Source: Maribacter antarcticus DSM 21422
GTDB taxonomy: Bacteria; Bacteroidota; Bacteroidia; Flavobacteriales; Flavobacteriaceae
Reading direction: 5' to 3'
Assembly: GCF_000621125.1 (NCBI RefSeq)
Contig: NZ_KK211214.1
Span: forward strand, 267,461 to 331,460
Length of the DNA: 64,000 nucleotides
A model generated the notes under the pieces. The model was not told the origin of the DNA. It saw only the letters and a program-made list of their open reading frames with translations, and did not search any database. Below, in pieces: positions 23,017 through 38,735 of this stretch (positions are counted from its first letter, which is position 1; the number at the start of each line of letters is the position of its first letter). Both the position numbers and the translations under genes were made by a program.

Positions 23017-24834
23017 CTATGAATAAAGTGCTGTAATGTCATTTTTAAACTTCTCGCGGATGACCCTTCTTTTTAATTTAAGGGTAGGAGTAAGTTCGGC
23101 TTCAGCACCATCTTCATGTATGGGCAGCCATGGTGAACTGATGAGTTTAAACTTTTTTACCTGTTCAATATGACTGAATTGAGGATTGTAGGCATCAATC
23201 ACTTTTTGATATTTGGAGATGACGTCTTTATGCTGTATCATGTCATCCAAAGTACTCCAACCTAATTTTTTGTGCTGACACCAATTTTTTAGTGACGCTT
23301 CAGAGGGAAGAATAAGGGCGGTCACAAATTTTTGCTTGTCGCCCACCACCATCATTTGTTCGATTAAGAAGTCTTCTTTCATTTTATTTTCAATTGGGGC
23401 AGGGGCAACATACTTACCTCCGGAGGTTTTCAATAGCTCCTTTTTACGATCTGTTATTTTTAGGAATTCGTTGCCTGTGGCATTTTTAATTAATTTACCT
23501 ATATCGCCCGTACAGAACCATTTTTCACCATCGATTTCTTTAAAGACTTGGGCGTTGATTTTTGGTTTTTTGTAGTAGCCTTCCATTACATTGGGTCCAT
23601 GTGCTAAAATCTCTCCTTCGTCGGTGGCGTAGTTACCATCTGACAGGTCTATTTTGAGGGAAACTCCAGGAATGGCATATCCTACTGTCCCAATAAAGGT
23701 GCCGCCGGGTTCCAAACTATTGATAGTTAGGGTGGGCGAGGTTTCTGTAAGTCCATAGGCCTCGCGTACAGGGATCCCGGCTGCACAGAAAACACGAAGT
23801 ATGTTTGATGGACAAGGAGCAGCCCCCGTAACAATCATGCGAATGTTACCTCCTAAAGCATCGCGCCATTTGCTGAAGATAAGTTTATCCGCAATCTTCC
23901 ATTGTAGTTTTTTGGTACTGGAACGTTTTTGGTCTAGCTCAAAATCATCGGTGAGGTTCAAAGCCCAAAAAAAGAGCTTTTTCTTTATTCCTTCAAGGGC
24001 AAGCCCTTTATTGTAAATGGCCTCATAGACTTTTTCCAATAATCTGGGAACGGTAGTGAAGACTACAGGCGCCACGCTTGCTAAATCTCCATCTGGTCCG
24101 CTTAGGTTGTCGGTGCCACAAAAATGAACTGCAGCACCCTTATAACAATAAGCAAAGGAAACCGCACGCTCATAGACATGACATAACGGCAAAAAGCTGA
24201 TGATTTTTTCACTTTGCTCCAACGGAAGAAATTTGGAAGTTTCCAGAATAACATGCAGGATGTTTTTATGTGTCAACATCACCCCTTTCGGGTTTCCGGT
24301 GGTACCGGAGGTATATATGATGGTGGCCAAGTCTTCCGATTTTATACCTGACTTTATTTCTTCTACCTCATTTTGTTTTGAGGTATCGAATACAGTTTCC
24401 CAAAAAGGCCCTTTTGAATCTTTGTCAAATGCGTAAATACGCGTCAGCTTAGGGCTATTTTTTTGTGCTTGTGTTAGTTTGTCGAACAAATCTAGTCCAC
24501 CACAAAAAGCAGCTTTTACTTCGGCTTCATTCAAAATATATTCGTATTAGCTTGGGCTGATAGTCGGATACATGGGAATACTAATCATTCCTACCATTTG
24601 TATCGCAAAATCCATAATGACCCATTCTGGGCGATTTTTATAGGACGTAATCGCAATTTTGTCTCCAGGTTCAAACCCTAAATTCAATAATCCTGAAGCT
24701 GCCAACTCTGCAGATTCTAGTACCTTTTGTGAACTATAAGATATCCATTGGCCGTCGGCATCCCGTGCGTTTAAAGCATTATCAATAGGGAAATTGGCAA
24801 CTTGGTGGTACAAAAGGTCAAAGAGTCTTTTCAT
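23017..24834 (-). pseudogene. Long-chain acyl-CoA ligase (AMP-forming), interrupted by one in-frame TAA
   Basis: Read on the minus strand from ATG at 24834, a single frame of 605 codons encodes a full acyl-CoA synthetase, broken only by TAA at 24547-24549. The N-terminal 95 residues end ...YPTISPS, and after the stop the frame resumes YEYILNEAEVKAAF, exactly the family's continuous sequence (a Glu or Asp is normally found at the stop). The rest is intact: TSGTTGNPKGVMLTHKN, YGLTETSP, GEWFCTGDIG-like motif (WFCTGDIGK) and TDRKKELLKTSGGKYV. Activation of a fatty or aryl-aliphatic acid would feed the acyl-CoA block upstream. One base change could explain the stop, so it is a recent mutation, a strain variant or a sequence error. 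A protein might still be made from a downstream start, but without the N-terminal segment. Confidence 0.85.
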
Positions 24835-24908: not shown

Positions 24909-25438
24909 TTATACCGTTGCCTTCCCAAGTTTTCTTTTTTGCTTAAAGCATGTTTTTTCTGCTATGTAGATAGTTTTGCGTACTTCACAGTATACGGTTT
25001 TTCTGCTTGTCGGTAAGTTTCGTTTTCTTTACAATATCGATTTCCTTTTGCTCCCTTACCATCTTCCTTATGTTGTCTAGCTCACGAGGGTCAAAACAGA
25101 AATCGGCATACAAGGCTTTACGTGCAGGGCGTTTGAAATAGATTTCTGGCCAACTTGTCCCAAACGATATAATCATCGCCTAAGAGCTGCATGAGCTGTA
25201 CGATAGGTATAGGGTCTACCGCCGCAAACATACTTCCCCAAAAAATGGAACCTACAAAATTTTTGTTTTTGTACGTGTAGCTGGCTTTGATACTGATACG
25301 TAACATGTCTTTCGAAATACCAATGATTTTTCCAGAACTCCTACGGTACATGGGAGACCAGTTGAAATCCTATTTGAAGAGTAGTTCTTTGGCAACGAAT
25401 CGGGTGCCTATTTTAGCTATTTTTTGATAGAAAGACAT
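24909..25438 (-). pseudogene. DUF4442 (thioesterase-like) gene with three disabling lesions
   Basis: Manual translation from ATG at 25438 gives MSFYQKIAKIGTRFVAKELLF, then TAG at 25370-25372, then DFNWSPMYRRSSGKIIG and FWGSMFAAVDP...GDDYIVWDKLA. At about 25148-25151 an extra C shifts the frame; the next frame reads EIYFKRPARKALYADF. In the T5 run at 24998-25002 (A5 on the coding strand) another extra base shifts it again, and the third frame reads KTVYCEVRKTIYIAEK to TAA at 24909-24911. The rebuilt protein is a normal hotdog-fold DUF4442 protein, a family found with acyl-CoA genes. Removing the two inserted bases restores one frame except for the TAG. It lies between the broken ligase and the MaoC gene. 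Confidence 0.8.
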
Positions 25439-25459: not shown

Positions 25460-25924
25460 TTACTCAAACATCAGACTTAAAAATTCCGCTACACAGGCGG
25501 GTTTTTCTGTACCTTGGATTTCTACTGTGCAGTTCCAAGTAATTTTTAATCCGTTATCGCCATACGCATCCATTGCAGAAATGACGGTGTGTAGTCGAAT
25601 TTGGCTGTCGACCAAAACAGGGCTTGGAAACCGTACTTTATTCAATCCGTAATTGACGCCCATTGTTGCTGAATCTACCGTTATGAGGTCTGTCAATAGT
25701 TTGGATAAAAGTGAAACTGACATAAAGCCGTGGGCAATTGCTTTTTTGAATGGCGAATGTTTTTTGATTTTCTCAAGATCCACGTGCACCCATTGAAAAT
25801 CTTGGGTAGCCTTCGCAAAATCGTTAATCATTTCTTGGCTTATTGTCAACCATGCTCCCGCAGGAATTTCTTTGCCTACCAAACTTTTGAACTCGGTAAA
25901 ATTTACAATATGTAGTTGTGCCAT
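25460..25924 (-). CDS. MaoC-family (R)-specific enoyl-CoA hydratase-like protein
   Basis: The 154-residue hotdog-fold protein has the hydratase motif DFQWVHVDLEKIKKHSPF, with the Asp and His of the MaoC active site, followed by AIAHGFMSVSLLSKLL. Members hydrate trans-2-enoyl-CoA to (R)-3-hydroxyacyl-CoA. Its position inside a row of acyl-CoA enzymes supports a beta-oxidation-type step. The upstream SDR gene is about 220 bases away, so it may have its own promoter. Confidence 0.88.
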   Translation of the reverse strand: MAQLHIVNFTEFKSLVGKEIPAGAWLTISQEMINDFAKATQDFQWVHVDLEKIKKHSPFKKAIAHGFMSVSLLSKLLTDLITVDSATMGVNYGLNKVRFPSPVLVDSQIRLHTVISAMDAYGDNGLKITWNCTVEIQGTEKPACVAEFLSLMFE

Positions 25925-26147: not shown

Positions 26148-26885
26148 TTATCTAGCCGTTCCGCCATCAATGGTAAGACAAATTCCTGATACGAATCGAG
26201 CCTCGTCTGAGGCAAGGTATAGATAGCCGTAGGCAATATCGATAGGTTGTGCAGCGGTTTTAAGTGGAATACTTGCTTTAATTGCGTCTAAATGGGCCTC
26301 CGGAATGTCAGCGACCATGTCGGTCAGTGTAAAACCTGGTGCCACGGCGTTGGCTGTAATGCCAAACTTACCTAGTTCCATGGTCCATGTCTTAGCCATG
26401 GCAATAACTCCCGCTTTGGTGGCGGCATAGTTGGTCTGCCCAAAATTTCCACGTAGCCCTACATTGGATGCTGCACTAACTATGCGTCCGTAGTTATTAG
26501 CCTTCATATAGGGAGCAACAGCTTGGGAGCAAATAAACACCCCTTTCAAGTTCACGTCAATAACGGCATCCCACTCGTCCATACTCATTTTTTCTAAAGT
26601 ACGGTCTCTGGTAATGCCTGCATTATTGATGAGGATGTCAATTTTACCATGGGTGGTGTTGATGTTTTCGAACAGGGTGTCAATTCCTATTTTATCTGTA
26701 ACCGAAACAGCATGATATTCTGCTACACTACCACTGGCAATAATATCTTCTGCAACGTGTTGCCCTTGGGGCAACAAATCAATAATAATAACTGTTGCTC
26801 CTTCCTTTGCAAACAATTCCGCAATGGCTTGTCCGATACCTCTTGCACCACCCGTAACAATGGCGACCTTATCTTTTAGTCTCAT
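26148..26885 (-). CDS. SDR-family oxidoreductase, FabG/3-hydroxyacyl-CoA dehydrogenase-like
   Basis: The 245-residue classical SDR has TGGARGIG (NAD(P) binding), NNAG, a catalytic Ser in VSAASNVG, YAATKAG (Tyr-x-x-x-Lys) and the C-terminal CLTIDGGTAR. It resembles beta-ketoacyl-ACP/CoA reductases. In this cluster, oxidation of an (R)-3-hydroxyacyl-CoA made by MaoC is a reasonable inference. The distance from the quinone oxidoreductase upstream is 55 bases. Confidence 0.88.
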   Translation of the reverse strand: MRLKDKVAIVTGGARGIGQAIAELFAKEGATVIIIDLLPQGQHVAEDIIASGSVAEYHAVSVTDKIGIDTLFENINTTHGKIDILINNAGITRDRTLEKMSMDEWDAVIDVNLKGVFICSQAVAPYMKANNYGRIVSAASNVGLRGNFGQTNYAATKAGVIAMAKTWTMELGKFGITANAVAPGFTLTDMVADIPEAHLDAIKASIPLKTAAQPIDIAYGYLYLASDEARFVSGICLTIDGGTAR

Positions 26886-26940: not shown

Positions 26941-27921
26941 TTAATCGGCCACACGAATTACTAATTTTCCCTTTACTTTTCGCTGCATCATGGCTTTCAA
27001 TGCTTTTGGGGCATCGGCAAGGGAATATATTTTATCGATATGAGGTTTTAATTTACCTTCAGCATACCATTGCATTAAGGTTATGGTGTTTTGCATATTT
27101 TCTTTGGGTTGTCCCATGGCGAAGCCGCCCCAAAAGACGCCTACTACGGAAGCCCCTTTTAACAAAGGTAGGTTTAGGGGTAGTTTGGGAATTTCTCCCG
27201 AGGCGAACCCTACGACCAAATACCTACCGTTCCAAGCCATGCCCCTAAAGGCTGCTTCTGAATAAGAGCCACCTACGGGGTCATAGATAACATCCACTCC
27301 TTTGTTTTTTGTCACAGCTTTTATGGTCGATTTTAAATCTTCTTTACTGTAGTTGATTGTTTCATCGGCACCGTAGTGTTTGCAGAGCTCCAATTTTTGA
27401 TCTGAAGAGGCTGCAGCAATAACATGCGCACCCATAAGTTTACCCAGTTCCACAGCAGCAAGGCCAACACCACCCGAAGCTCCTAAGACGAGCAAGGTTT
27501 CCTCTTTTTGTATTTTAGCGCGGTCTTTTAGCGCATAAAATGAAGTGCCGTAGGCCATCATAAAAGATGCGGCTACAGGGAAGTCCATTTGCTTTGGTTT
27601 GAGAAAACACGCATTGGCAGGTATTAAAACTTCCTCGGCCATGGCGCCATGGGCCACAAAACCAAACACTTCATCGCCTACTTTTAGATGCTTTACGTCT
27701 TCCCCTATTGCCTTTACAACGCCCGCTACATCACTGCCTGGAGTAAAAGGTAACTCCGGCTTGAATTGGTACAAGCCTTGAATGATGAGTGTATCCGGAA
27801 AATTAACACCGCAAGCTTTCACACGGACTAACACCTCTTTTTTGTCTGGTTTTAAATTTACTACTTCTTCCAAGGTTAAGGAGGAAGGAGGGCCGTAATT
27901 ATTGCATCGTATTGCTTTCAT
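26941..27921 (-). CDS. Zinc-free quinone oxidoreductase/NADPH-dependent MDR enzyme
   Basis: The 326-residue medium-chain dehydrogenase lacks the catalytic and structural zinc ligands. It has the N-terminal GroES-like fold (VKACGVNFPDTLIIQG), GSDVAGVV, the cofactor loop LGASGGVGLAAVELGK and a C-terminal MQRKVKGKLVIRV. The closest recognisable group is NADPH:quinone oxidoreductase/enoyl reductase. In a catabolic acyl-CoA cluster it may reduce or oxidise an enoyl or keto intermediate; the substrate is unknown. It is followed downstream by the SDR gene. Confidence 0.87.
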   Translation of the reverse strand: MKAIRCNNYGPPSSLTLEEVVNLKPDKKEVLVRVKACGVNFPDTLIIQGLYQFKPELPFTPGSDVAGVVKAIGEDVKHLKVGDEVFGFVAHGAMAEEVLIPANACFLKPKQMDFPVAASFMMAYGTSFYALKDRAKIQKEETLLVLGASGGVGLAAVELGKLMGAHVIAAASSDQKLELCKHYGADETINYSKEDLKSTIKAVTKNKGVDVIYDPVGGSYSEAAFRGMAWNGRYLVVGFASGEIPKLPLNLPLLKGASVVGVFWGGFAMGQPKENMQNTITLMQWYAEGKLKPHIDKIYSLADAPKALKAMMQRKVKGKLVIRVAD

Positions 27922-27968: not shown

Positions 27969-28967
27969 TTATTCTATCACCTTCAATACTAACTTTCCTT
28001 TCTTGTCTCCGGTAAACAAGCGATTATAAGTCTCAGGAAAGTTTTCAATACCTTCATAAATAGCTTCGCGGCTTTTTAACTTGCCTTCGGCCATCCATGT
28101 ACCAAGCTGCAGGGCACCTTCTTTATAACGATCTGCATAATCAAATACCACCATACCCTGCATGCTAGCGCGGTTTACGAGCAGTGATAAATAGTTGCTA
28201 GGTCCTTTTATCGCAGTTTTGTTATTGTATTGGGAAATGGCACCACAGATCACTATGCGCGCGTGGCGACGTAATCTAGTCAAAGCGATGTCCAAGATAT
28301 CGCCGCCTACATTATCAAAATACACATCGATTCCTTTTGGACAATATTCTTTCAACTTGGTTGCCACATTTTCGTTCTTGTAGTCGATACAGGTATCAAA
28401 ACCGAGTTCTTCTACCACGTATTTGCATTTATCGGCTCCACCGGCAATTCCCACTACGGTACAGCCTTTGATTTTTGCTACTTGCCCTACAATACTACCT
28501 ACGGCGCCTGCAGCGCCGGAAACCAACACCACATCCCCTTCTTTTATTTTTCCAACTTCTGTAATGCCAAAATAAGCAGTCATTCCAGTCATTCCTAAAG
28601 TTCCAATATACGTAGGTAAAGGAGCCATTTTAGGGTCTACAGGGTAATAGCCTTGTCCGTCGGTTACCGCATATTGCTGAACGCCACCGATGCCTGCAAC
28701 GTACTGACCCACTTGAAAATCTGGATTTTTTGATGCGATGACCTCACCGACCGAGCCAGCTCGCATCACCGAACCTATTTCCATTGGGGCAATGTAGGAT
28801 TTAGAATTATTCATCCATCCGCGCATGGCAGGGTCTAAGGATACATAATGTTGTTTTATCAAGAGTTGCCCTTCCTCAATTTCTGGAATTGGGTTACTTG
28901 CCAATTCCCAAGTGGTAGCATCTGCGTCTCCTATGGGTCTTTTTACAAATAATAGTTGTTTGTTCAT
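27969..28967 (-). CDS. NADP-dependent oxidoreductase, PTGR/CurA-like MDR
   Basis: The 332-residue zinc-free MDR enzyme starts NKQLLFVKRPIGDADATTWEL and has VSLDPAMRGWMN, the cofactor loop VSGAAGAVGSIVGQVAK and YFDNVGGDILD. These match the prostaglandin/leukotriene reductase and CurA group, which reduces alpha,beta-unsaturated ketones or aldehydes with NADPH. It is the second MDR in the block, from a different subgroup than its neighbour. Upstream, about 100 bases separate it from the enoyl-CoA isomerase gene. Confidence 0.87.
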   Translation of the reverse strand: MNKQLLFVKRPIGDADATTWELASNPIPEIEEGQLLIKQHYVSLDPAMRGWMNNSKSYIAPMEIGSVMRAGSVGEVIASKNPDFQVGQYVAGIGGVQQYAVTDGQGYYPVDPKMAPLPTYIGTLGMTGMTAYFGITEVGKIKEGDVVLVSGAAGAVGSIVGQVAKIKGCTVVGIAGGADKCKYVVEELGFDTCIDYKNENVATKLKEYCPKGIDVYFDNVGGDILDIALTRLRRHARIVICGAISQYNNKTAIKGPSNYLSLLVNRASMQGMVVFDYADRYKEGALQLGTWMAEGKLKSREAIYEGIENFPETYNRLFTGDKKGKLVLKVIE

Positions 28968-29075: not shown

Positions 29076-29846
29076 TCACTTTTTTTTACTGGAAAAACTA
29101 TCCACATAGGCTTCCATTTTAGCTCTGATATCAGGTTTCCACCAAAGCTCCGAGGCTTCCTTTAGTGCATTTTCCGCTTTTAAATCTAGTTTGTCCAGTA
29201 GGTGTTTTCGAACCTTGTATTTGGTGTTCACTAGAATTTCTTGGTCGGCTTGCAAATATTTTTTCATTTGCTGTTCGGCACGATCTACTACACTTTCCAA
29301 GGGAACTAATTCATCTACCAAGCCGGCAGCCAAGGCTTCTTTTCCTGATAATAATTTACCTTCCATGATATAGCGACTGGCCCGTCCATTACCCATCCAA
29401 AAGGCATAAATCTCGGTTAGGTTTTGACTGATTTGTATGTTGACGGCTACTTCATTGAGCCCAATAACATATTTGTCGCCTTCAGCCATATAGCGATTAT
29501 CGCTCGTAACAGCTAATACGCAACCACCCGCTGGCGAATGGCCGGTAATGGCAGAGATAAAAGGTTTTTTGAACTGCACCAGCTCCAGATATAAGGCGCC
29601 AAAATCGGTAAAAAAAGAAGTGATTTCTCCTTTGTTGTATTGAAACAGTTCAATTAAATCCAGTCCAGCAGAAAAATAGTGTGGTTGCCCCGATAGTATC
29701 ACACCTTTTACCCCAGGGTCTTTTTCTAAGGAAGCAAACACTTGGCGGAGTTCACGTACCATATCACGGTTGATGGCGTTCACTTTTCCTCGGTTCATTT
29801 GAACTACGGTATAGCCTTCTTTTTGTGTAAGTATTACGTTTTGCAT
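29076..29846 (-). CDS. Enoyl-CoA hydratase/isomerase, like Delta3,Delta2-enoyl-CoA isomerase
   Basis: The 256-residue crotonase-fold protein has the oxyanion-hole segment FSAGLDLIEL and GHSPAGGCVLAVTSDNRYM, then IGLNEVAV with the conserved Glu. The GHSPAGGC and IGLNE blocks are the pattern of mitochondrial-type 3,2-trans-enoyl-CoA isomerase (ECI1), so double-bond migration during unsaturated acyl-CoA oxidation fits better than plain hydration. It starts 6 bases after the upstream SDR stop, so the two are co-transcribed. Confidence 0.87.
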   Translation of the reverse strand: MQNVILTQKEGYTVVQMNRGKVNAINRDMVRELRQVFASLEKDPGVKGVILSGQPHYFSAGLDLIELFQYNKGEITSFFTDFGALYLELVQFKKPFISAITGHSPAGGCVLAVTSDNRYMAEGDKYVIGLNEVAVNIQISQNLTEIYAFWMGNGRASRYIMEGKLLSGKEALAAGLVDELVPLESVVDRAEQQMKKYLQADQEILVNTKYKVRKHLLDKLDLKAENALKEASELWWKPDIRAKMEAYVDSFSSKKK

Positions 29847-29852
29847 AGTTAA

Positions 29853-30608
29853 TTATAAAGATGTACCTCCATCTAAGGTGATGGTTTGTCCAGTTACGAA
29901 TTTAGAGCTATCGGAGGCGAGCCAACAAATAGCTTCTGCAATTTCATCGGCTTCTCCAAAGCGGCCCATGGGAATCATGTGTTTGATTTTTTCTTCTATG
30001 GTGGGGCTAGATGCCAATAATTGATTCAATAAAGCGGAATTGGTAAAACCCGGACAAACCGCATTAATGCGGATTTTTTTTCGGCCGTATTCCAAGGCGG
30101 CGGATTTGGTCATCCCCACAACGGCATATTTACTGGCGCTATACGAAAGGTTGTTGCCAGATGCTTTCAATCCCGCTAAAGATGCCACATTTACTATGTT
30201 TCCATGTCCTTGCGCCGTCATCTGTTGCAGGGCTACTTTCATACAATAAAAAACACCAGTCTGGTTCACGGCAATCACATTATGCCAATCGTCATGGGTA
30301 TGTTCTGCGGTTTTTAGTTGTTGCTTTCCGCCGATTCCAGCATTATTTACCATCACATCTAATTGGCCATAGGTTGCCACTGTTTTAGAAATTAATGCTC
30401 CAACCGCATCAAATTGAGTAACATCGGTTTGTATAGCTTCTGCTTTGCCGCCAGCCGCTACTATTTGGCTAGCTGTGTTTAAGGCGTTCTCTAGGTGGAT
30501 ATCCGAAACAACGACTATGGCGCCATGTGTTCCAAATAGTTTTGCCGTGGCAGCTCCGATACCACTTCCGGCACCTGTGATAATGACTACTTTATTTTTT
30601 AGATTCAT
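29853..30608 (-). CDS. SDR-family oxidoreductase
   Basis: The classical SDR has VIITGAGSGIG, NNAG, a catalytic Ser in VASLAGLK, YSASKYAV and a C-terminal TGQTITLDGGTSL. The ATG at 30608 gives the usual compact start (MNLKNKVVIITG); an ATG at 30629 would add seven residues. It could oxidise a hydroxyacyl-CoA or reduce a keto group. In the levulinate route an SDR reduces the 4-keto group before the kinase acts, but I cannot tell which of the three SDRs here would do that. Confidence 0.87.
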   Translation of the reverse strand: MNLKNKVVIITGAGSGIGAATAKLFGTHGAIVVVSDIHLENALNTASQIVAAGGKAEAIQTDVTQFDAVGALISKTVATYGQLDVMVNNAGIGGKQQLKTAEHTHDDWHNVIAVNQTGVFYCMKVALQQMTAQGHGNIVNVASLAGLKASGNNLSYSASKYAVVGMTKSAALEYGRKKIRINAVCPGFTNSALLNQLLASSPTIEEKIKHMIPMGRFGEADEIAEAICWLASDSSKFVTGQTITLDGGTSL

Positions 30609-30766
30609 TAATACGTCTTTTATTTTCATTTCCGCGCTTGTGCTAAACTTGTTTCAGAAAAGGCGGGAATCACTTTGTTATATTTCTCCTTAATCCTTCA
30701 ATTTTTACAATCCAATCAAATAGTTAATCTTTCCATTTCAGCTATTTTTCAATGCATTAGACTATT

Positions 30767-31846
30767 TCAATACAAATCATCGATTTGATTTTTTTGAATG
30801 GCCTGCCAAGCGTTGGTACAACATAATTCCGACGCTTTATTGAGCTGCGCAAACTTTGGGTCGCTTGTATAGCCATGTTTGTAACGGTAATAGATTTGCT
30901 GTGCGATGACCGCAATTTTAAATAGTCCGTACACATAATAAAAAACCAAGTTGTCTATGCTTCTACCGCTCTTAAGGGCATATTGCTGTACAATGTCCGT
31001 TCGGGAAGGATTACCTTCCATCACGGTGGGCGAGGGGAGTCCTTGTTTCATAATATCGGGGTCATCGGCAGTAATCCAATAGCCCAAGGATGTACCCAAG
31101 TCCATCAAAGGATCTCCGAGCGTGCACATTTCCCAATCCAATAGCGCTGAAATTTCGGTCCAACTATCATCCTTAAATACTACATTATTATATTTAAAAT
31201 CGTTGTGTATAAGGCTATGATTGTAGTTTTTTGGTTGATTCTCCTGCATCCATTCCATTACTTTTTTTGCCACGGTAACATTATCAGTTGCCGCTACAAG
31301 GTATTGCTTGCCCCAATTGGTGACCTGTCGTTCTACATAGCCCTCCGGTCTTCCTAAATCGGCAAGGCCAGCAGCTTTATAATCTATTTGATGAAACGCA
31401 ACAAAAGTATCCAGCCAAGTATTCGCAATGGTTTTAAAGGCATGTGGTGTTATGGCTTTTTGCCTGGCGGTTTTCGTCGTTATTATTTCGCCATCAATTT
31501 TACTCATAATATAAAAAGGAGCCCCTAAAATAGTTTTGTTTTCGGTATACACATAGACTTTTGGTGTCTTGTCAAAAACTGGATTCAAATGTTGTAGCAC
31601 TTTATACTCCCTACCCATATCATGACCGCGTTTTGGCGCTGAAAACGGAGGTCTACGAAGTACCAACTCCTTGCCTTCAATTTGTAACAAATAGGTCAAA
31701 TTGGAATAACCGTTCGAAAACTGATACACTTTTAGGTCGCTCTCGGCGGAATTAATGAGTCCGTACTCCAATAAAAACTGTTTTATCTGTTTTTTAGGAA
31801 GTCCCTCGCCTTTGCGGACCGGTTTTGTGGTTGGGGTCACTTCCAT
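30767..31846 (-). CDS. Phosphotransferase (APH-like) of the ACAD10/11-LvaA type
   Basis: The 359-residue protein has the aminoglycoside-phosphotransferase/protein kinase-like fold. It shows the N-lobe strand LVLRRPPFSAPKRGHDMGRE, the catalytic loop HNDFKYNNVVF (His-x-Asp with Asn) and the metal-binding LLDWEMCTLGDPLMDLG. All catalytic residues are present. The same domain forms the kinase part of mammalian ACAD10/ACAD11 and of LvaA in Pseudomonas levulinate catabolism, where it phosphorylates the 4-hydroxyl of a 4-hydroxyacyl-CoA. Its ATG is two bases after the stop of the ACAD10/11-type dehydrogenase, so the pair is translationally coupled. I infer a 4-hydroxyacyl-CoA kinase; an unrelated acceptor remains possible. 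Confidence 0.85.
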   Translation of the reverse strand: MEVTPTTKPVRKGEGLPKKQIKQFLLEYGLINSAESDLKVYQFSNGYSNLTYLLQIEGKELVLRRPPFSAPKRGHDMGREYKVLQHLNPVFDKTPKVYVYTENKTILGAPFYIMSKIDGEIITTKTARQKAITPHAFKTIANTWLDTFVAFHQIDYKAAGLADLGRPEGYVERQVTNWGKQYLVAATDNVTVAKKVMEWMQENQPKNYNHSLIHNDFKYNNVVFKDDSWTEISALLDWEMCTLGDPLMDLGTSLGYWITADDPDIMKQGLPSPTVMEGNPSRTDIVQQYALKSGRSIDNLVFYYVYGLFKIAVIAQQIYYRYKHGYTSDPKFAQLNKASELCCTNAWQAIQKNQIDDLY

Positions 31847-31848
31847 AA

Positions 31849-33066
31849 TTAGAGCGAATTGTATTTTTTAATGGTGTTTTTTCCCAATTGACTCATATGG
31901 ACTTCATCCGGGCCATCGGCCAATCGCAGTATACGTGCCGAGGCATAGAAATGTGCCAAAGGAGTGTCATCGCTAACCCCCTTACCTCCCATGATTTGTA
32001 TGGCGCGGTCAATCACTTTTAGAGCCATGGTCGGGGCCACGATTTTGATCATGGCTATGAGGTTTTTTGCTTCCTTGTTGCCCGATTTATCCATTTTATC
32101 GGCAGCAGAAAGTGTCAATAAACGTGCTTGTTCTATGGCACAAGCCGATTTTGCAATATCCTGTCGGATACTACTATAGGTATCCAAGGTGCGACCAAAA
32201 GGCTTGCGTTGCACTGTCCGTTCCGACATGAGTTCCAAGGATCGTTGTGCCATGCCGATAAGCCGCATACAATGATGAATACGACCGGGTCCCAAACGCC
32301 CTTGGGCAATTTCAAATCCTTTTCCTTCACCAACCAATATATTCGATTTTGGGACTCGGACGTTCTCTAATAAAATTTCCGCATGGCCTTCAGGCGAATC
32401 GCTATAGCCAAAAACCGGTAAATGCCTGATGATTTTAAGCCCTGGTGTATCCATGGGAACCAAGACCATACTTTGTTGTGCATGCCTTGGGGCATCAAAA
32501 TCGGTCTTGCCCATAACGATGACAATTTTACAATGTGGGTCCATTGCTCCAGACGACCACCATTTTTTCCCATTGATGACATAATCGTCTCCATCGGAAA
32601 CTATAGCGGTTTCAATGTTGGTGGCATCTGAGGAAGCTACATCGGGCTCGGTCATTAAAAAGGCAGAGCGTATATGACCTTCCAATAGAGGGGCAAGCCA
32701 TTTTTCTTGCTGCGCAGGAGTTCCATATTTGGCTAAAACTTCCATATTTCCGGTGTCGGGCGGACTACAATTAAAAACCTCCGAGGCCCATAAGATACGG
32801 CCCATGATCTCTGCCAAGGGCGCATATTCCAAATTCGTGAGTCCGGCACTAAAATTCCCATAGCTATCAGGCAGAAAGAGATTCCACAAACCTTCTGCCT
32901 TGGCCTGGTCTTTTAAAGCCTCCAAGCCCGGCCATTTGGTCCAGGCATTTTTTGGGTCAAGATTAAAGGTATCCACCTCACGCTCCACCGGAAGAAGATG
33001 TTCGGAGATAAAGGCCTTCAATTTATCTTGAAGTATTATTGATGTTTCGCTATGGTCAAAATTCAT
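31849..33066 (-). CDS. Acyl-CoA dehydrogenase-like protein of the ACAD10/11-LvaC type
   Basis: The 405-residue FAD protein has the acyl-CoA dehydrogenase fold with [32 protein letters not shown] and the C-terminal [15 protein letters not shown]. Ordinary family members have a Glu base in a YEGT-like motif; here the equivalent segment reads LADGPDEVH, the signature of the ACAD10/ACAD11 group. In 4-hydroxyacid metabolism these proteins turn the phosphorylated acyl-CoA into an enoyl or 3-hydroxyacyl-CoA. It is directly followed by the kinase gene and preceded 9 bases away by an SDR. The phosphate-dependent role is inferred from the pairing and the family. Confidence 0.85.
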
Positions 33067-33075
33067 GAGTTCGTT

Positions 33076-33846
33076 TTATCCTGAAATTAAATATCCGCCA
33101 TCGGCAGCATATACACCACCGGTCATATAGGAACCAGCATCCGAGGCTAAGAGCATTACCAAGCCTGCCATTTCATCTGGTTCTGCCATACGTTTTAAAG
33201 GTACCATTTGTTCATAACCAGCAACTAACTTTTCGTTAGACCATAAGCTTTCGCTAAACTTGGTCTTAATGAGTCCCGGACATACTGCATTGGAACGGAT
33301 ATCATAACGACCCCATTCCTTTGCCTGATTTTTCGTCATCATAATCAACGCTGCTTTGGTTATGCTGTATAGTCCCAACCTAAACCCTGGATGAATACCT
33401 TCAACCGACGAAATATTGATAATACTGCCTCCTTGCGCCTTCATGTATGGTTGTACTAAATTAGAAAGCAACCAGGGTGCTTTTACATTGATATTCATAA
33501 TCTTATCAAAAACGGCGTCATCGGAATTTTCCAAAGGGCCGTAATACGGATTGATAGCGGCATTGTTGACCAAAATATCGATACGACCATAGGTAGCAAT
33601 GGTCTGTGAAATTAAGTTTTCACATTGGGCTTTGTCGCCAATATGGCAAGCGATGCCTATGGCTTCCAATCCCATTTCTTTAAATTCATTGGCAACCGAA
33701 TCCACGGCATTCTGTTTCCTGCTGCTGATGACCACTTTTGCCCCGTTCTCTGCCAAACCTTGGGCAATGGATTTTCCAATACCCTTGCTAGAGCCAGTAA
33801 TGATAGCCACTTTACCACTAAGGTCAAATTTCTGTTTTATGCTCAT
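33076..33846 (-). CDS. SDR-family oxidoreductase
   Basis: The 256-residue classical SDR has VAIITGSSKGIG, NNAAINPYYG, a catalytic Ser in INISSVEGIH, YSITKAAL and the C-terminal GGVYAADGGYLISG. It is 9 bases upstream of the ACAD10/11-type gene and so belongs to the kinase/dehydrogenase unit. A role in reducing a keto-acyl-CoA or oxidising a hydroxyacyl-CoA is plausible. Confidence 0.87.
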   Translation of the reverse strand: MSIKQKFDLSGKVAIITGSSKGIGKSIAQGLAENGAKVVISSRKQNAVDSVANEFKEMGLEAIGIACHIGDKAQCENLISQTIATYGRIDILVNNAAINPYYGPLENSDDAVFDKIMNINVKAPWLLSNLVQPYMKAQGGSIINISSVEGIHPGFRLGLYSITKAALIMMTKNQAKEWGRYDIRSNAVCPGLIKTKFSESLWSNEKLVAGYEQMVPLKRMAEPDEMAGLVMLLASDAGSYMTGGVYAADGGYLISG

Positions 33847-33957: not shown

Positions 33958-35769
33958 TTAGGCAAAAACCTTTTTATCAGAACCTATAGTTAATGCTTTT
34001 CCGTTCATTAAGATTTCTGCTAGTCCGGTTGTTTTCGGTAATTCGTATGTAAAGTAGAATTCCATGGTATGAATTTTACTTTCATAAAAGTCACTACTGT
34101 TTTCGGTAGCTCCCATAACCAAAGCCTGTTGAGCTTCTCGGGCCATATCTAACCAAAGCCATCCGATAAGAATATTAGAGAAAAATTCCATAAAAGGAGT
34201 AGCATCGGCCAAGAAGCGTTCGTAATCACCTTTTATGGCATAGCCCATAAGCGATTGTAGTACTTTCTGGGTCAATTCTAGTTTTTCGGCTAATTTGTGA
34301 GCATAGGGTGCAAGCAATTCGTGCGTCATACTCGCCTTGATGGATTTGGTGATTTCTTCTGATAGTAGTTGTAGTGCCTTACCATTTTCCATCGTTACTT
34401 TTCGACCCAATAAATCTTGGGACTGAATGCCGGTAGTGCCTTCATAAATAGAAAAAATACGGATATCACGCAGGTATTGTTGTAAAATGTAATCGGAGCA
34501 GAAGCCATAACCTCCTAAGACTTGAACGCCATTGTCCACCGCAACGCGACCCATTTCTGACGGATAGGTTTTTACAACAGGTGTCAGTATCTCTAATAGT
34601 AATTTATACCTTTTTCGTTCTTCTATATCTGTATGTGAATTAGAATAATCGTGATATTTGGCTGTAAGGAAGACCAAACTCAAAGACCCTTCCGAAACGG
34701 CCTTTTGTAATAAAAGCATCCTGCGCACATCCGGATGGTTAATGATTAGCGTCTGTGCCTGTTGTATATTTTTTTTCCCCGTATTGGATAATTTACGGCC
34801 TTGCGATCTTTCGTGAGCATAGTTTAACGAGGCATGGTAGGCTGCTGTTGCAATAGCGGCCGCACCCCTACCAACGGCAATACGTGCCCCGTTCATCATT
34901 AAGAACATATATTTTAGACCTTGGTTCACTTCGCCTACCAGCCATCCTTGGCAATCTTGCTTGTCGCCGAAGAATAAATGTGTAGTACAGTAGCCTTTTT
35001 GGCCCATTTTCTCAAAATCGGCTACCGTTTGTACATCGTTGTGCGCTAGACTATTATCTGTAGTCGGTCTGTGTTTAGGTACTACAAAAAGTGAAATACC
35101 TTTGGTGCCAGCTGGTGCTCCCTTGATTCTGGCTAAAATAAGGTGTACTATATTTTCTACCCCTTGGTAATCGCCGCCAGAAATAAATATTTTTTGGCCA
35201 TGTATTTTATAGGTATCTCCATCAGCTTCCGCTGACGTTGTAATATCAGATAATGAACTCCCAGCTTGTGGTTCTGTTAAACACATAGTACCTCCCCAAC
35301 TGCCATCTAGCATTTTAGGAACATAGGTAGTATTCAATGCTTCATTGCCAAAATGGGTAATCAGTTCCGCCGCTCCAATGGTAAGTCCAATATAGCCCGG
35401 TAGATGATTATTCGCCGCCTCTTGAATATAGCCTGAAGCGTTAATGACCATCGCGGGTAATTGCATACCGCCATCTTTATACGGAAAAGCTCCAGCGATA
35501 AACCCCATTTCCCCACCAGCTTTCATGTATTTAGGCACTTGCGGGTGCACTATAATTTCCCCATCCTTAAAATGGGCTGGATTTTCGTCCATCTCTTTAA
35601 AATAGGGATACATTTCTTTGTCTGAAAATTCTTTAACCGAATTCAATAGTAGATCAATGGAACCGATATCGTAATCGGAGTAGTTGGGCAAGTTTAGGAC
35701 ATCTTGCAGCCCATGAACCTGGTATAATAGAAATTTAAGGGATTCTAAATCGATATACTCGTTTGCCAT
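33958..35769 (-). CDS. Acyl-CoA dehydrogenase, large form with C-terminal extension
   Basis: The 603-residue enzyme belongs to the large (about 600 aa) acyl-CoA dehydrogenases found in many bacteria. It has CLTEPQAGSSLSDITT, GQKIFISGGD, the Arg/Gly FAD region (ARIAVGRGAAA) and the catalytic Glu in IFSIYEGTTGIQSQDLLGRK, followed by an extra helical C-terminal domain. I choose the ATG at 35769 (MANEYIDLESLKFLLYQVHG), the normal start of these proteins; 35826 would add 19 residues. As the first gene on the minus strand it probably opens the cluster. It oxidises acyl-CoA to enoyl-CoA; chain-length preference is unknown. Confidence 0.88.
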   Translation of the reverse strand: MANEYIDLESLKFLLYQVHGLQDVLNLPNYSDYDIGSIDLLLNSVKEFSDKEMYPYFKEMDENPAHFKDGEIIVHPQVPKYMKAGGEMGFIAGAFPYKDGGMQLPAMVINASGYIQEAANNHLPGYIGLTIGAAELITHFGNEALNTTYVPKMLDGSWGGTMCLTEPQAGSSLSDITTSAEADGDTYKIHGQKIFISGGDYQGVENIVHLILARIKGAPAGTKGISLFVVPKHRPTTDNSLAHNDVQTVADFEKMGQKGYCTTHLFFGDKQDCQGWLVGEVNQGLKYMFLMMNGARIAVGRGAAAIATAAYHASLNYAHERSQGRKLSNTGKKNIQQAQTLIINHPDVRRMLLLQKAVSEGSLSLVFLTAKYHDYSNSHTDIEERKRYKLLLEILTPVVKTYPSEMGRVAVDNGVQVLGGYGFCSDYILQQYLRDIRIFSIYEGTTGIQSQDLLGRKVTMENGKALQLLSEEITKSIKASMTHELLAPYAHKLAEKLELTQKVLQSLMGYAIKGDYERFLADATPFMEFFSNILIGWLWLDMAREAQQALVMGATENSSDFYESKIHTMEFYFTYELPKTTGLAEILMNGKALTIGSDKKVFA

Positions 35770-35983
35770 GATGGTGTCCATTTTATGATTGGACTTCAAG
35801 GTAATCCAATTTATAGCTAATTCCATTAAACTAGTTTAATAAACAAAAAAGTGGATATGTCATTTTGTTTTATATCGCACTAGGCGTTAAGTTCCTGATG
35901 CATTAGCGCTTTAGAATACACTATCAGAGAAGATTTATTCACTTATATTTAAAATCTAAATAACTAAAAGAAGGCTTTAGCTT

Positions 35984-36616
35984 ATGGATTCAGTCTCCAA
36001 TGCCATTTGGGCCCTTTCGTTGATTATAAGCATGTTCGGAATGGGGCTATCGTTAAGTATTGGGGATTTTGCAGCTGTTTTTCAGCGTCCTAAAGCTATC
36101 ATTATAGGGCTTATCTGTCAATTGATATTGCTTCCTATTGTGGGTTTTTCCTTAATTGACATCTTTTCATTACAGCTTGACATAGCTATAGGAATCATCA
36201 TTTTGTTTGCGTGCCCAGGTGGACTTACATCCAACCTGATTACCCATTTGGCCAATGGCGATACGGCACTTTCAGTCTCCATGACGGCTGTCTGTAGTTT
36301 TATTACATTGCTTACAATACCCTTCATTATTACTTTAGGATTACAAAAGGTTCTGGGAGCAGGCACTTTAATTCGACTTAATGTTTCACAGACTATTTTG
36401 CAAGTGTTCCTAGTAGTCATAGTTTCTGTGGCCCTTGGCATACTCTTAAAATCAAGACGCCAAAAGTTTTCCCTTCAGAGGAAGAACCCCGTAAAGCGTG
36501 CTTCGAGTATCTTTTTTGTAGTGGTGTTTATAGCGGTTATTATTAAGGAAAGGGCATTATTGTTTTCAAGTCTGGATGAAGCTGGCTTATTTATTTTTTG
36601 GAGTAACCAACGATAG
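35984..36616 (+). pseudogene. Bile acid:Na+ symporter-family gene truncated at the 3' end
   Basis: The 210-residue protein matches the first two-thirds of the BASS transporter family: FGMGLSLSIGDF, FACPGGLTSNLITHLANGD and ALSVSMTAVCSFITLLTIPF. Intact members have about 300 residues and 9-10 membrane helices. After SSLDEAGL, the family sequence is lost and a short unrelated tail (FIFWSNQR) leads to a stop. I find no continuation in other frames before the Crp/Fnr gene, so the 3' part seems to be deleted. It is divergent from the acyl-CoA block and may have been its uptake transporter, for an organic anion. The protein is unlikely to be functional. Confidence 0.7.
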
Positions 36617-37563: not shown

Positions 37564-38735
37564 TTAATCTGAAATCGTTAGTCCTAATTTATAGATTGTC
37601 TCATCAAACGCACAGATATATAGTTCGTTATCGTTGTCCGTTCCAAAGGAAGTGATGCTCAATCTAGATTCCAATACTAGTTCATTCGTATTGTCCGTGG
37701 TGTTCAAAGCCCAAATACGGCCACTCACAAAATCGCCATAAATATATTTACCACTTAGGGAAGATATGGCAGTGCCCCGATAAACAAAACCACCGGTTAT
37801 GGAACGGTCACCATTGTCATGGCCATATTCAAATACAGGTGCAGTAAGTCCGGTTGTTTCCCAATCCCCAGAAAAGCAAGACGTGCCCTTAAGAATTTTC
37901 CAGCCATAATTACCTCCCGAAATAATTACATTTATCTCCTCACGTTCCCCTTGCCCAACATCACTGGTCCAGAGCGACCCATTTTGAGAATCAAAACTCA
38001 GGCGCCAAGGATTGCGAAGGACGTAAGCATAGATTTCGGGTCTTACCTGTGGCTCGTTTACAAATGGGTTGCTGGAAGGAATGGCATAATTTAATCCGTT
38101 TTCACGATTGTCCACATCAATTCTGAGTATATTTCCCAATAGGTTATTTCTATTCTGCGCATTATTTTCTGGGTCTCCTCCTGTTCCTCCATCACCCACG
38201 GCAAGGTATAAAAGGCCGTCTGGGCCAAAGGAAATCTAATTACCATTATGGTTGGTGAGTGGCTGTGGAATTTCTAAAAGTACCTCCTCGCTACCAGCAT
38301 CGGCTATATTGGCATCTGAAGATACTGTAAATCTTGAAATAATAGATAACGTTGCGGTGGGTGTGTAATAAACATAAAAGTATCCGTTACTACTATATTT
38401 AGGATGGAAGGCTAATCCCAACAGGCCCTGTTCACTGGTGGTAGAAATGTTTGATAGATTCAAAAAATTGGTGGTGTTCATTGCGGTGGTATCATTTTCG
38501 AAGACCACAATACGTCCTCTTTTTTCAACTACAAAAAGAGGTTCGGTATCATCGACAGGTGTCTGAAGGTCCAAAAGCTAACTAAAAGATAAGCTTGGAA
38601 ATAGCTCGATAAGAGCAATGGTTTTTTCTTCCTCATCAATTAATTCTATTTTGGAGTCGTCGGAATGACAAGAAAAGAGGATTGTTAAAAGTAGGCTTTA
38701 AATAATTTTAAAACCTTAATAACATGTAGGGTTTA
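37564..38735 (-). pseudogene. PQQ-dependent sugar dehydrogenase-like lipoprotein gene with several lesions
   Basis: The minus-strand frame encodes a glucose/sorbosone dehydrogenase beta-propeller: LDLQTPVDDTEPLFVVEKRG, GLLGLAFHPKYSSNGYFYVYY, PLTNHNGN, then TAG at 38236-38238, then ISFGPDGLLYLAVGDGGTGG through GNYGWKILKGTSCF and FGTDNDNELYICAF. Homologues read through the stop with a Gln-like residue, so CAG to TAG is likely. Upstream, the same frame reads IELFPSLSFS then TAG at 38578-38580, and further up a lipoprotein signal LLLTILFSCHSDDS, which needs one more base in the A4 run at 38687-38690 to join KVLKLFKAYF. The 5' limit is approximate. The enzyme would oxidise aldoses in the periplasm with PQQ. 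Confidence 0.8.

Follow-up and report, generated by a model that had tools for sequence, protein, structure and literature searches.

The stretch of Maribacter antarcticus DNA analysed here (64,000 nucleotides; hereafter the window) carries on its minus strand an ORF for a kinase (30767-31846) and an ORF for an acyl-CoA dehydrogenase (31849-33066), coupled with two bases between them, and the question raised by this pair is whether the route for 4-hydroxy acids known from mammals, Pseudomonas, and Burkholderia extends to another phylum, the Bacteroidota. The original prediction, which had described this coupling correctly, held that the two proteins act on 4-hydroxyacyl-CoA in the manner of ACAD10/11, and at the level of sequence this view finds support in the residues of the dehydrogenase, the catalytic residues of the kinase, and the identical presence and absence of both genes in two bacterial groups. 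We propose that the pair is probably a two-protein counterpart of ACAD10/11 (with a probability of roughly 0.78), through which a 4-hydroxyacyl-CoA would be phosphorylated and then converted to 2-enoyl-CoA, and that its substrates may be of medium to long chain. What the analysis shows directly is sequence membership, active-site residues, conservation of the operon, and joint inheritance; the reactions, the parts played by the accessory enzymes, and the chain length are inferred.

The dehydrogenase (405 aa; Pfam Acyl-CoA_dh_N/M/1) is, judged by its sequence, of the ACAD10/11 type. Its closest relatives in a search among solved structures were ACAD11 enzymes (2wbi, 8.5e-136; 8v3u, 1.1e-131), with the next conventional acyl-CoA dehydrogenase at 9.6e-40. 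In the alignment, R257, R262, H265, C266, M267, R268, and D384 correspond to R626, R631, H634, C635, M636, R637, and D753 of mouse ACAD11, and the catalytic D384, contained in the LADGPDEVH motif that had been singled out in the original prediction and was recovered here, occupies the position where a conventional Glu would stand. Substitution of R626, H634, R637, or the catalytic D753 blocks turnover of the phospho-intermediate in ACAD10/11 (PMC12440821). The phosphate-site residues, including the HCMR set, and the catalytic Asp are invariant across the window and 100/100 aligned homologue loci, and the phosphate site fits a predicted 4-phosphoacyl-CoA. A cavity-widening proline described as typical of ACAD10/11 (human ACAD11 Pro463) may, going by the numbering, be Ser95 in the window, a position with P in 44 and S in 44 of the 102 rows, the mouse enzyme included. 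Should the proline in question instead be that of PDTGNM, all 102 rows have it.

The kinase (359 aa; Pfam APH PF01636, E 6.4e-39) has an APH/PKL fold with intact catalytic residues, comprising the catalytic Asp, the Asn, and the metal Asp (H214, D216, N221, and D237, together with R79-E80 and R173). D216 and N221 correspond to D220 and N225 in 70/70 rows, and R173 to the CoA-contact residue R176 of mouse ACAD11 in 69/70 rows. The second CoA-contact arginine of that enzyme, R86, may correspond to R79, which likewise adjoins the alphaC Glu (67/70 rows), yet the chain number aligned with it is 83 and does not match. Structural comparison of the predicted kinase model with 8v3v gave Z 20.9 and rmsd 2.4 over 229. 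The identity of the kinase to K2 kinases, ACAD11 among them, is 25-32%, and the kinase tree did not group it with the ACAD11 and Burkholderia-type enzymes. Instead, its own subfamily (K1) and that of ACAD11 and the Burkholderia kinases (K2) formed separate clades with a split of 100/100, in a tree whose K1/K2 labels were assigned from identities and from which three over-long ORF calls (L070, L104, and L135) were left out. Given this level of identity and the separate clade, the substrate of the kinase could differ from that of ACAD11. The finding points to K1 as a second kinase subfamily for the same job, so that a more fitting name could be given to some proteins now labelled 'aminoglycoside phosphotransferase family'.

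Both genes were present in the identical 27 of 395 genomes sampled from the window's phylum, in the identical 8 of 31 close relatives, and in the identical 97 of 99 genomes of the Pseudomonas group. Physical linkage was looser: the two genes were unlinked in 5 of the 27 genomes of the phylum sample, never lay within 10 kb of each other in the 97 Pseudomonas-group genomes (nearest 21 kb, taking the best dehydrogenase match per genome), and 34/100 dehydrogenase loci had no kinase in the stretch examined, which spanned at most ~10 kb on each side and was in some cases ended by contig ends. The genome searches scored the best few first-look candidates per genome (4-6 in the 395-genome searches for the kinase, the dehydrogenase, and SDR1), so some misses are possible. 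Kinase-ACAD loci of the Pseudomonas group (L201-L208) were set aside as a different ACAD type, scoring 277-392 bits against the ACAD HMM compared to 490-729 for the 100 loci.

Mammalian ACAD11 and ACAD10 (PMC12440821, PMC11342911) resemble the window's pair in the dehydrogenase active site and in the kinase catalytic residues, and the same two-step logic would be expected, whereas the window encodes two separate proteins, with a K1 kinase in place of the ACAD11-type K2 and a dedicated operon. The proteins of a Burkholderia pseudomallei kinase-dehydrogenase pair have been assayed (PMC11342911), and here a Burkholderia guangdongensis locus (L096) and Paraburkholderia loci served as stand-ins for it. 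Separate, adjoining genes are found in both systems, and the Burkholderia dehydrogenase is 60-62% identical to the window's, among the best 80 of 592 matches in a named-genome scan that is no measure of total spread; in contrast, the Burkholderia kinase belongs to K2 (26% identity to the window's for L096) and its gene comes first. A histidine-phosphatase ORF, recognized by motif, adjoins the Burkholderia-type kinase gene in L103 and L113. As a fixed partner the phosphatase was rejected, a crude motif scan having placed one within 6 kb of the kinase in 8/66 loci, and a second crude scan in 10/66 loci within 2.5 kb, several of them clearly false; L041-L069 yielded none.

A conserved operon encloses the pair and is partly decayed in this strain. 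All on the minus strand, it comprises a FadE-type acyl-CoA dehydrogenase of long-chain type (ACADc, 33958-35826, 622 aa, PF12806), a DHRS4-type short-chain dehydrogenase (SDR1, 33076-33846, 256 aa), the dehydrogenase and kinase themselves, a further short-chain dehydrogenase outside the DHRS4 clade (SDR2, 29853-30629), an ECH-family protein that is closest, among solved structures, to a mitochondrial 3,2-trans-enoyl-CoA isomerase (29076-29846), a CurA/prostaglandin-reductase-type NADP-dependent double-bond reductase (27969-28967), a PIG3/QOR-type quinone oxidoreductase (26941-27921), a FabG-type SDR (26148-26885), a MaoC-type hydratase (25460-25924), a broken DUF4442 gene (24933-25438, interrupted once by an in-frame stop and twice by a change of frame when compared with an intact relative), and a broken acyl-CoA ligase (23017-24834, with an in-frame TAA at 24547-24549). 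The SDRs, isomerase, MaoC hydratase, and broken ligase that had been named as neighbours are therefore all present; the two MDR reductases (27969-28967 and 26941-27921) and the second ACAD (ACADc) are additional to that list. The gene order ACADc-SDR1-ACAD11-KIN-SDR2-ECH-CurA is kept in 9/9 relatives, with a low dN of 0.10-0.24 and dS either above 2 or not computable, which speaks against a chance arrangement; dN/dS ratios were omitted because dS was saturated. Intact ligase copies of 605-618 aa occur in 5/9 relatives, and among the best matches of the window's ligase, none of which reaches its NCBIfam cut-off, are long-chain ligases. With its ligase and DUF4442 genes disrupted, this strain may have lost part of the route. 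A scan for strict Bacteroidetes-type promoters found none in 35701-36000 and 10 across the window when both strands were counted.

Under the proposed route, the kinase would use ATP to phosphorylate the 4-hydroxyl of 4-hydroxyacyl-CoA, and the dehydrogenase would then expel the phosphate using FAD with no net redox change, yielding a 2-enoyl-CoA that could enter beta-oxidation via the operon's MaoC and FabG-type enzymes together with thiolases encoded elsewhere in the genome, where two strong thiolase matches were found. SDR1 would most likely convert the 4-oxo form to 4-hydroxyacyl-CoA, the role of LvaD, while the isomerase and the double-bond reductase would deal with unsaturated substrates.

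Other readings of the locus account for parts of this evidence. The kinase might act on a different alcohol, such as a tertiary alcohol or the hydroxylated side chain of a sterol or terpenoid, with this enzyme or a different one expelling the phosphate, after the pattern of the 25-hydroxy steroid kinase route. The 25-hydroxy steroid kinase of Sterolibacterium denitrificans (PMC8449060) is likewise an APH-fold kinase, turns an alcohol into a leaving group, and works with an unidentified C-O lyase; it is also the second-best fold match to our kinase model (9ft5, Z 27.1, rmsd 3.5 over 331) and a sequence match to the window's kinase at 6.3e-10. Its substrate, however, is a steroid, its identity to the window's kinase in the structural alignment is 20%, and 9o56, 3dxp, and ACAD11 are all nearer to that kinase by sequence. 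Since the kinase is, moreover, co-inherited with the ACAD10/11-type dehydrogenase, and the phosphate site of the latter fits 4-phosphoacyl-CoA, we consider a different alcohol unlikely. More doubtful still is an ordinary ETF-linked acyl-CoA dehydrogenase of fatty acid breakdown accompanied by a bystander kinase, which would agree with the general beta-oxidation enzymes sharing its operon but is rendered highly improbable by the unvarying active-site Asp and HCMR set and by co-inheritance with the kinase even where the two genes are unlinked.

An operon for levulinate (4-oxopentanoate), on the model of lva in Pseudomonas putida, would contain the same pair of enzyme types, and the lvaABCDE operon (described in PMC6692424) resembles the window's in having a separate kinase and ACAD (LvaA/LvaC) accompanied by SDR and ligase genes. 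In 7/9 relatives the kinase is also directly followed by an ORF of 127-143 aa, weakly DUF1330-like in three of five proteins scanned and below the Pfam cut-off. In the window itself, by contrast, there is no ORF between the kinase and SDR2 and hence no LvaB-like gene where one might be expected, in agreement with the original prediction, which had reported seeing none; no trusted remnant of the small ORF was found there, the best tblastn match (E 0.009) giving no coherent frame. Proteins of the LvaR, LvaF, or LvaG type were likewise absent among the operon proteins scanned, ACADc resembles long-chain enzymes, and no lva operon was recognized in the Pseudomonas-group stretches read. Nothing points to levulinate as the substrate, and we regard a levulinate operon as very unlikely.

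SDR1 may be a 4-oxoacyl-CoA/4-hydroxyacyl-CoA reductase. By sequence it groups with animal DHRS4, apart from generic SDRs: its best three solved matches are DHRS4, and in an SDR tree holding few generic SDRs, a branch supported at 100/97 united the 34 SDR1-like rows with both DHRS4 rows (from pig and worm) and a single further row. Within the phylum sample, SDR1 was found in 23/27 genomes with the pair, no match being found in the other four, and in 1/368 genomes without it (G184; Fisher p 3.9e-32, kinship ignored). SDR1 adjoins the K1 kinase in 97/97 genomes of the Pseudomonas group, and matches also occur in both genomes of that group without the kinase-dehydrogenase pair. As SDR1 (at least 44% identity) lies near the dehydrogenase in only 14/25 loci counted as Bacteroidota and 8/51 others, 8 kb or more being available on both sides, the claim for this SDR rests on genome profiles. 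Joint inheritance and kinase adjacency tie a DHRS4-type reductase to the route and suggest a possible role for DHRS4 beside ACAD11. We tentatively raise the idea, about which we remain rather doubtful, that the kinase, the ACAD10/11-type dehydrogenase, and the DHRS4-type SDR form one ancient three-enzyme module, with the SDR interconverting 4-oxoacyl-CoA and 4-hydroxyacyl-CoA. If so, animals would have kept all of its parts, with ACAD11 as the fused kinase and dehydrogenase and DHRS4 as the reductase, 4-oxoacyl-CoAs would be physiological substrates of mammalian DHRS4, and the operon, which also encodes a double-bond reductase and an isomerase, would consume oxidised fatty acids, e.g., 4-hydroxy- and 4-oxo-alkenoic acids. 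ACAD11 and DHRS4 are both listed among mouse liver peroxisomal proteins.

The operon around the kinase and the ACAD10/11-type acyl-CoA dehydrogenase most likely leads 4-hydroxy or 4-oxo acids into beta-oxidation. The two ORFs (dehydrogenase, 31849-33066; kinase, 30767-31846) were found on the minus strand with 2 bp between them, as first noted, and are genes 3 and 4 of a minus-strand run from 35826 to 23017. ACADc (33958-35826) and SDR1 (33076-33846) precede the pair, which is followed by SDR2 (29853-30629), an isomerase-type ECH protein (29076-29846), a CurA/PTGR-type double-bond reductase (CurA, 27969-28967), a PIG3-type reductase (QOR, 26941-27921), a FabG-type SDR, MaoC, a broken DUF4442 gene (24933-25438, minus strand) and a broken acyl-CoA ligase, whose in-frame TAA (24547-24549, minus strand) separates ORFs of 95 aa and 505 aa. 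The SDRs, isomerase, MaoC and broken ligase first noted around the pair all lie in the same run.

Assignment of the dehydrogenase to the ACAD10/11 type, suggested by the motif LADGPDEVH, was borne out by a PDB search, in which human and mouse ACAD11 (8.5e-136, 1.1e-131, 5.2e-131) and 4hr3 (2.9e-125) ranked first, and the next matches, short-chain ACADs, reached only 9.6e-40; the sequence also contains a 13-residue stretch, not shown here. According to the available text of PMC12440821, mouse ACAD11 holds the 4-phosphate through R626, H634 and R637 and uses D753 as catalytic base, and Ala or Leu substitutions at those three phosphate ligands did the most damage, with build-up of the phospho-intermediate. 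The sites of R626, R631, H634, C635, M636, R637 and D753 (chain numbering in our alignment is one lower than published) show no variation across the window and all 100 aligned loci, picked by HMM score with one protein per locus, and are kept even in homologues only 37-43% identical to the window dehydrogenase. A human ACAD11 proline named in the accessible part of PMC11342911 falls on Ser95 in the window under one reading of its position and is conserved under the other.

The kinase possesses the catalytic Asp216 and Asn221 and the metal Asp237, at sites invariant in all 70 aligned rows (the window, three solved structures and 66 loci). Its AlphaFold model (pLDDT 92.4) best matched 3dxp (Z 32.7, rmsd 2.9 over 319), followed by a 25-hydroxy steroid kinase (Z 27.1) and Rv3168 (Z 26.8), with ACAD11 at Z 20.9 (rmsd 2.4 over 229). 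The nearest solved chain by sequence was 9o56 (1e-89), labelled an aminoglycoside phosphotransferase; a literature search from 2024 onward gave no paper naming 9O56. A tree of 67 kinases separated two subfamilies with support of 100/100, a value that shows the split and is no independent test of it, as the labels had been assigned from identities beforehand (five rows carry neither label). K1 comprises the window, 9o56, Bacteroidota, Bacillaceae, a planctomycete and an acidobacterium, whereas mouse ACAD11 and 3dxp group in K2 with Burkholderia and other Proteobacteria. Three Pseudomonas-group kinases (L159, L160, L162), placed separately in a tree, also fell inside K1 (100/100). With mouse ACAD11 the window kinase shares 27% identity, and with K2 rows 25-32%. 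LvaA, the kinase of the Pseudomonas putida levulinate operon, is given as 29% identical to ACAD10/11 in the available text of PMC11342911 and may well belong to K1, given identities to mouse ACAD11 of 26-35% for K1 rows and 38-45% for K2 tree rows. In sphingomonads and Hydrocarboniphaga, the kinases close to the dehydrogenase (L075, L079, L081, L085) belong to neither subfamily, and L075 and L079 sit on long branches.

Joint inheritance of the pair was assessed in genome surveys that scored the best few first-look candidates per genome. Of 395 genomes from the phylum of the window, 27 carried the dehydrogenase at E up to 1e-60 and 27 the kinase at E up to 1e-40; the two sets were identical and spread over 18 of 171 genera. 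Were genomes independent, the chance of this would be 1 in C(395,27) (log10 -41.7), a figure that serves only as a sign of strength since they are not. Five of the 27 (G219, G304, G312, G338, G417) have the genes on separate contigs or roughly 100 kb from each other, and 7.7 kb separates them in G207. Of 31 close relatives, the same eight carry both, all of the window's genus (8/19). In the Pseudomonas group (99 genomes from the genus to which G427, the source of locus L139, titled Pseudomonas fluorescens, belongs), both genes are present in 97 and both missing in the same two (G475, G511). The kinase and the best dehydrogenase match lie within 10 kb in none of the 97: 51 genomes have them on separate contigs, the other 46 at a distance of 21 kb or more. 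G500 has an additional second pair with adjacent genes. Counting against joint inheritance are the 34 of 100 dehydrogenase loci with no kinase within the stretch examined, partly because of contig ends, and a Saprospiraceae MAG (L062) that keeps ACADc, the ACAD10/11-type gene, a small ORF, SDR2 and ECH, in which no kinase was found in 15 kb. One Pseudomonas-group dehydrogenase (G466:C1:4707724-4708916) is split into two parts, of which one contains a TGA, through either decay or assembly error; the kinase of that genome is intact.

SDR1 appears to be a DHRS4-type partner of the pair. Its top three solved matches were DHRS4 structures (2.4e-58, 9e-57, 7.4e-47; next 1.2e-43), and in a tree of 93 SDRs pig and worm DHRS4 fell within a branch (100/97) containing all 34 SDR1-like rows, so labelled by score cut-off, and L104, labelled other beforehand. 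This branch is separate from SDR2, FabG and the two solved generic SDRs included, 2hq1 and 3woh. SDR1 (E up to 1e-50) occurred in 24 of the 395 phylum genomes. These are G184, which lacks the pair, and 23 of the 27 pair genomes, the exceptions being G117, G341, G078 and G215 (Fisher p 3.9e-32, uncorrected for kinship); SDR1 is not close to the dehydrogenase in eight of the 23 (G312, G207, G304, G278, G219, G400, G175, G338). All 97 Pseudomonas-group genomes that carry the pair have their best SDR1 match within 300 bp of the kinase match, at a median gap of 43 bp; a match in both pair-less genomes speaks against an exclusive role. Mouse liver peroxisomal proteins include both ACAD11 and DHRS4 (PMC11673421, as far as available), and some open-access papers, in the parts accessible, mention both. 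DHRS4 is absent from the available main text of PMC12440821 and PMC11342911, and was not among the matches listed in a search for it with 4-hydroxy or 4-oxo acids.

The order ACADc-SDR1-ACAD11-KIN-SDR2-ECH-CurA is kept in all nine relatives with the operon (L041-L049), and downstream of CurA these carry QOR in eight, FabG and MaoC in six and an intact ligase in five, L044 and L047 being cut or different beyond this part. Parts of the operon recur elsewhere: in the 51 further loci that extend 8 kb or more to either side of the dehydrogenase, neighbours counted at identity cut-offs were the kinase (34), MaoC (11), SDR1 (8), QOR (7), ACADc (4), CurA (3) and SDR2 (1). The intact window genes look constrained, with dN of 0.10-0.24 against up to six relatives and dS above 2 or not computable.

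Along the proposed route, a 4-hydroxy or 4-oxo acid would be converted to its CoA ester, which in Maribacter antarcticus DSM 21422 would need another ligase, as the ligase and DUF4442 genes are broken. SDR1 would then reduce the 4-oxo group, the kinase would phosphorylate the 4-hydroxyl, and the dehydrogenase, by analogy with ACAD10/11, for which this has been shown, would expel phosphate to give 2-enoyl-CoA. MaoC, FabG-type SDRs and thiolases would complete the cycle; two strong PF00108 thiolase matches lie elsewhere in the genome. The nearest relative of ECH is 3,2-trans-enoyl-CoA isomerase, and CurA most resembles 4b7c and prostaglandin and 2-alkenal reductases. Medium or long chains seem more likely substrates than levulinate, mainly because of the type of ACADc, which is closest to the long-chain enzymes 8pns, 8r1e and FadE5. 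Both the reactions and the pairing of the two enzymes have already been described in mammals, Pseudomonas and Burkholderia (PMC12440821, PMC11342911 and PMC6692424, in their available text). Among the papers listed in open-access searches for a Bacteroidota or flavobacterial version, none dealt with it by title and opening of the abstract. No published account was seen of the division into K1 and K2, of the exact co-occurrence of the pair or of the DHRS4-type partner.

Several smaller features were noted. An ORF of 127-143 aa, weakly DUF1330-like, lies directly behind the kinase in seven of the nine relatives (L041-L047) and is missing from the window as well as from L048 and L049, and in L042 an intact DUF4442 copy sits between CurA and QOR. 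Upstream of the K1 kinase in Pseudomonas-group L159 and L162 are small ORFs that by eye we take to be SCP2 sterol-carrier-like, with one in L162 presumably histidine-phosphatase-like. Beside the operon, a transporter-like ORF (35984-36616, by eye a sodium symporter) is probably truncated, at 210 aa against matches of 279 aa (L048) and 288 aa (L045), and is short in L047 too; a sugar-dehydrogenase-like gene recognised by eye (37564-38574), with an in-frame stop at 38236-38238, is another decayed gene close by. The closest named dehydrogenase homologues, among the best 80 of 592 matches, were from uncultured Flavobacteriaceae (77% identity), a Saprospiraceae MAG (76%) and Polaribacter (72%); the same 80 include a 61% match (L083) on a contig assigned to a Klebsiella pneumoniae MAG, a label that may be wrong. 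On Sulfitobacter pontiacus plasmids (matches H3, H4 and H29), a PLSDB 'vanG Van ligase' resistance annotation overlies the dehydrogenase match and looks like a false annotation.
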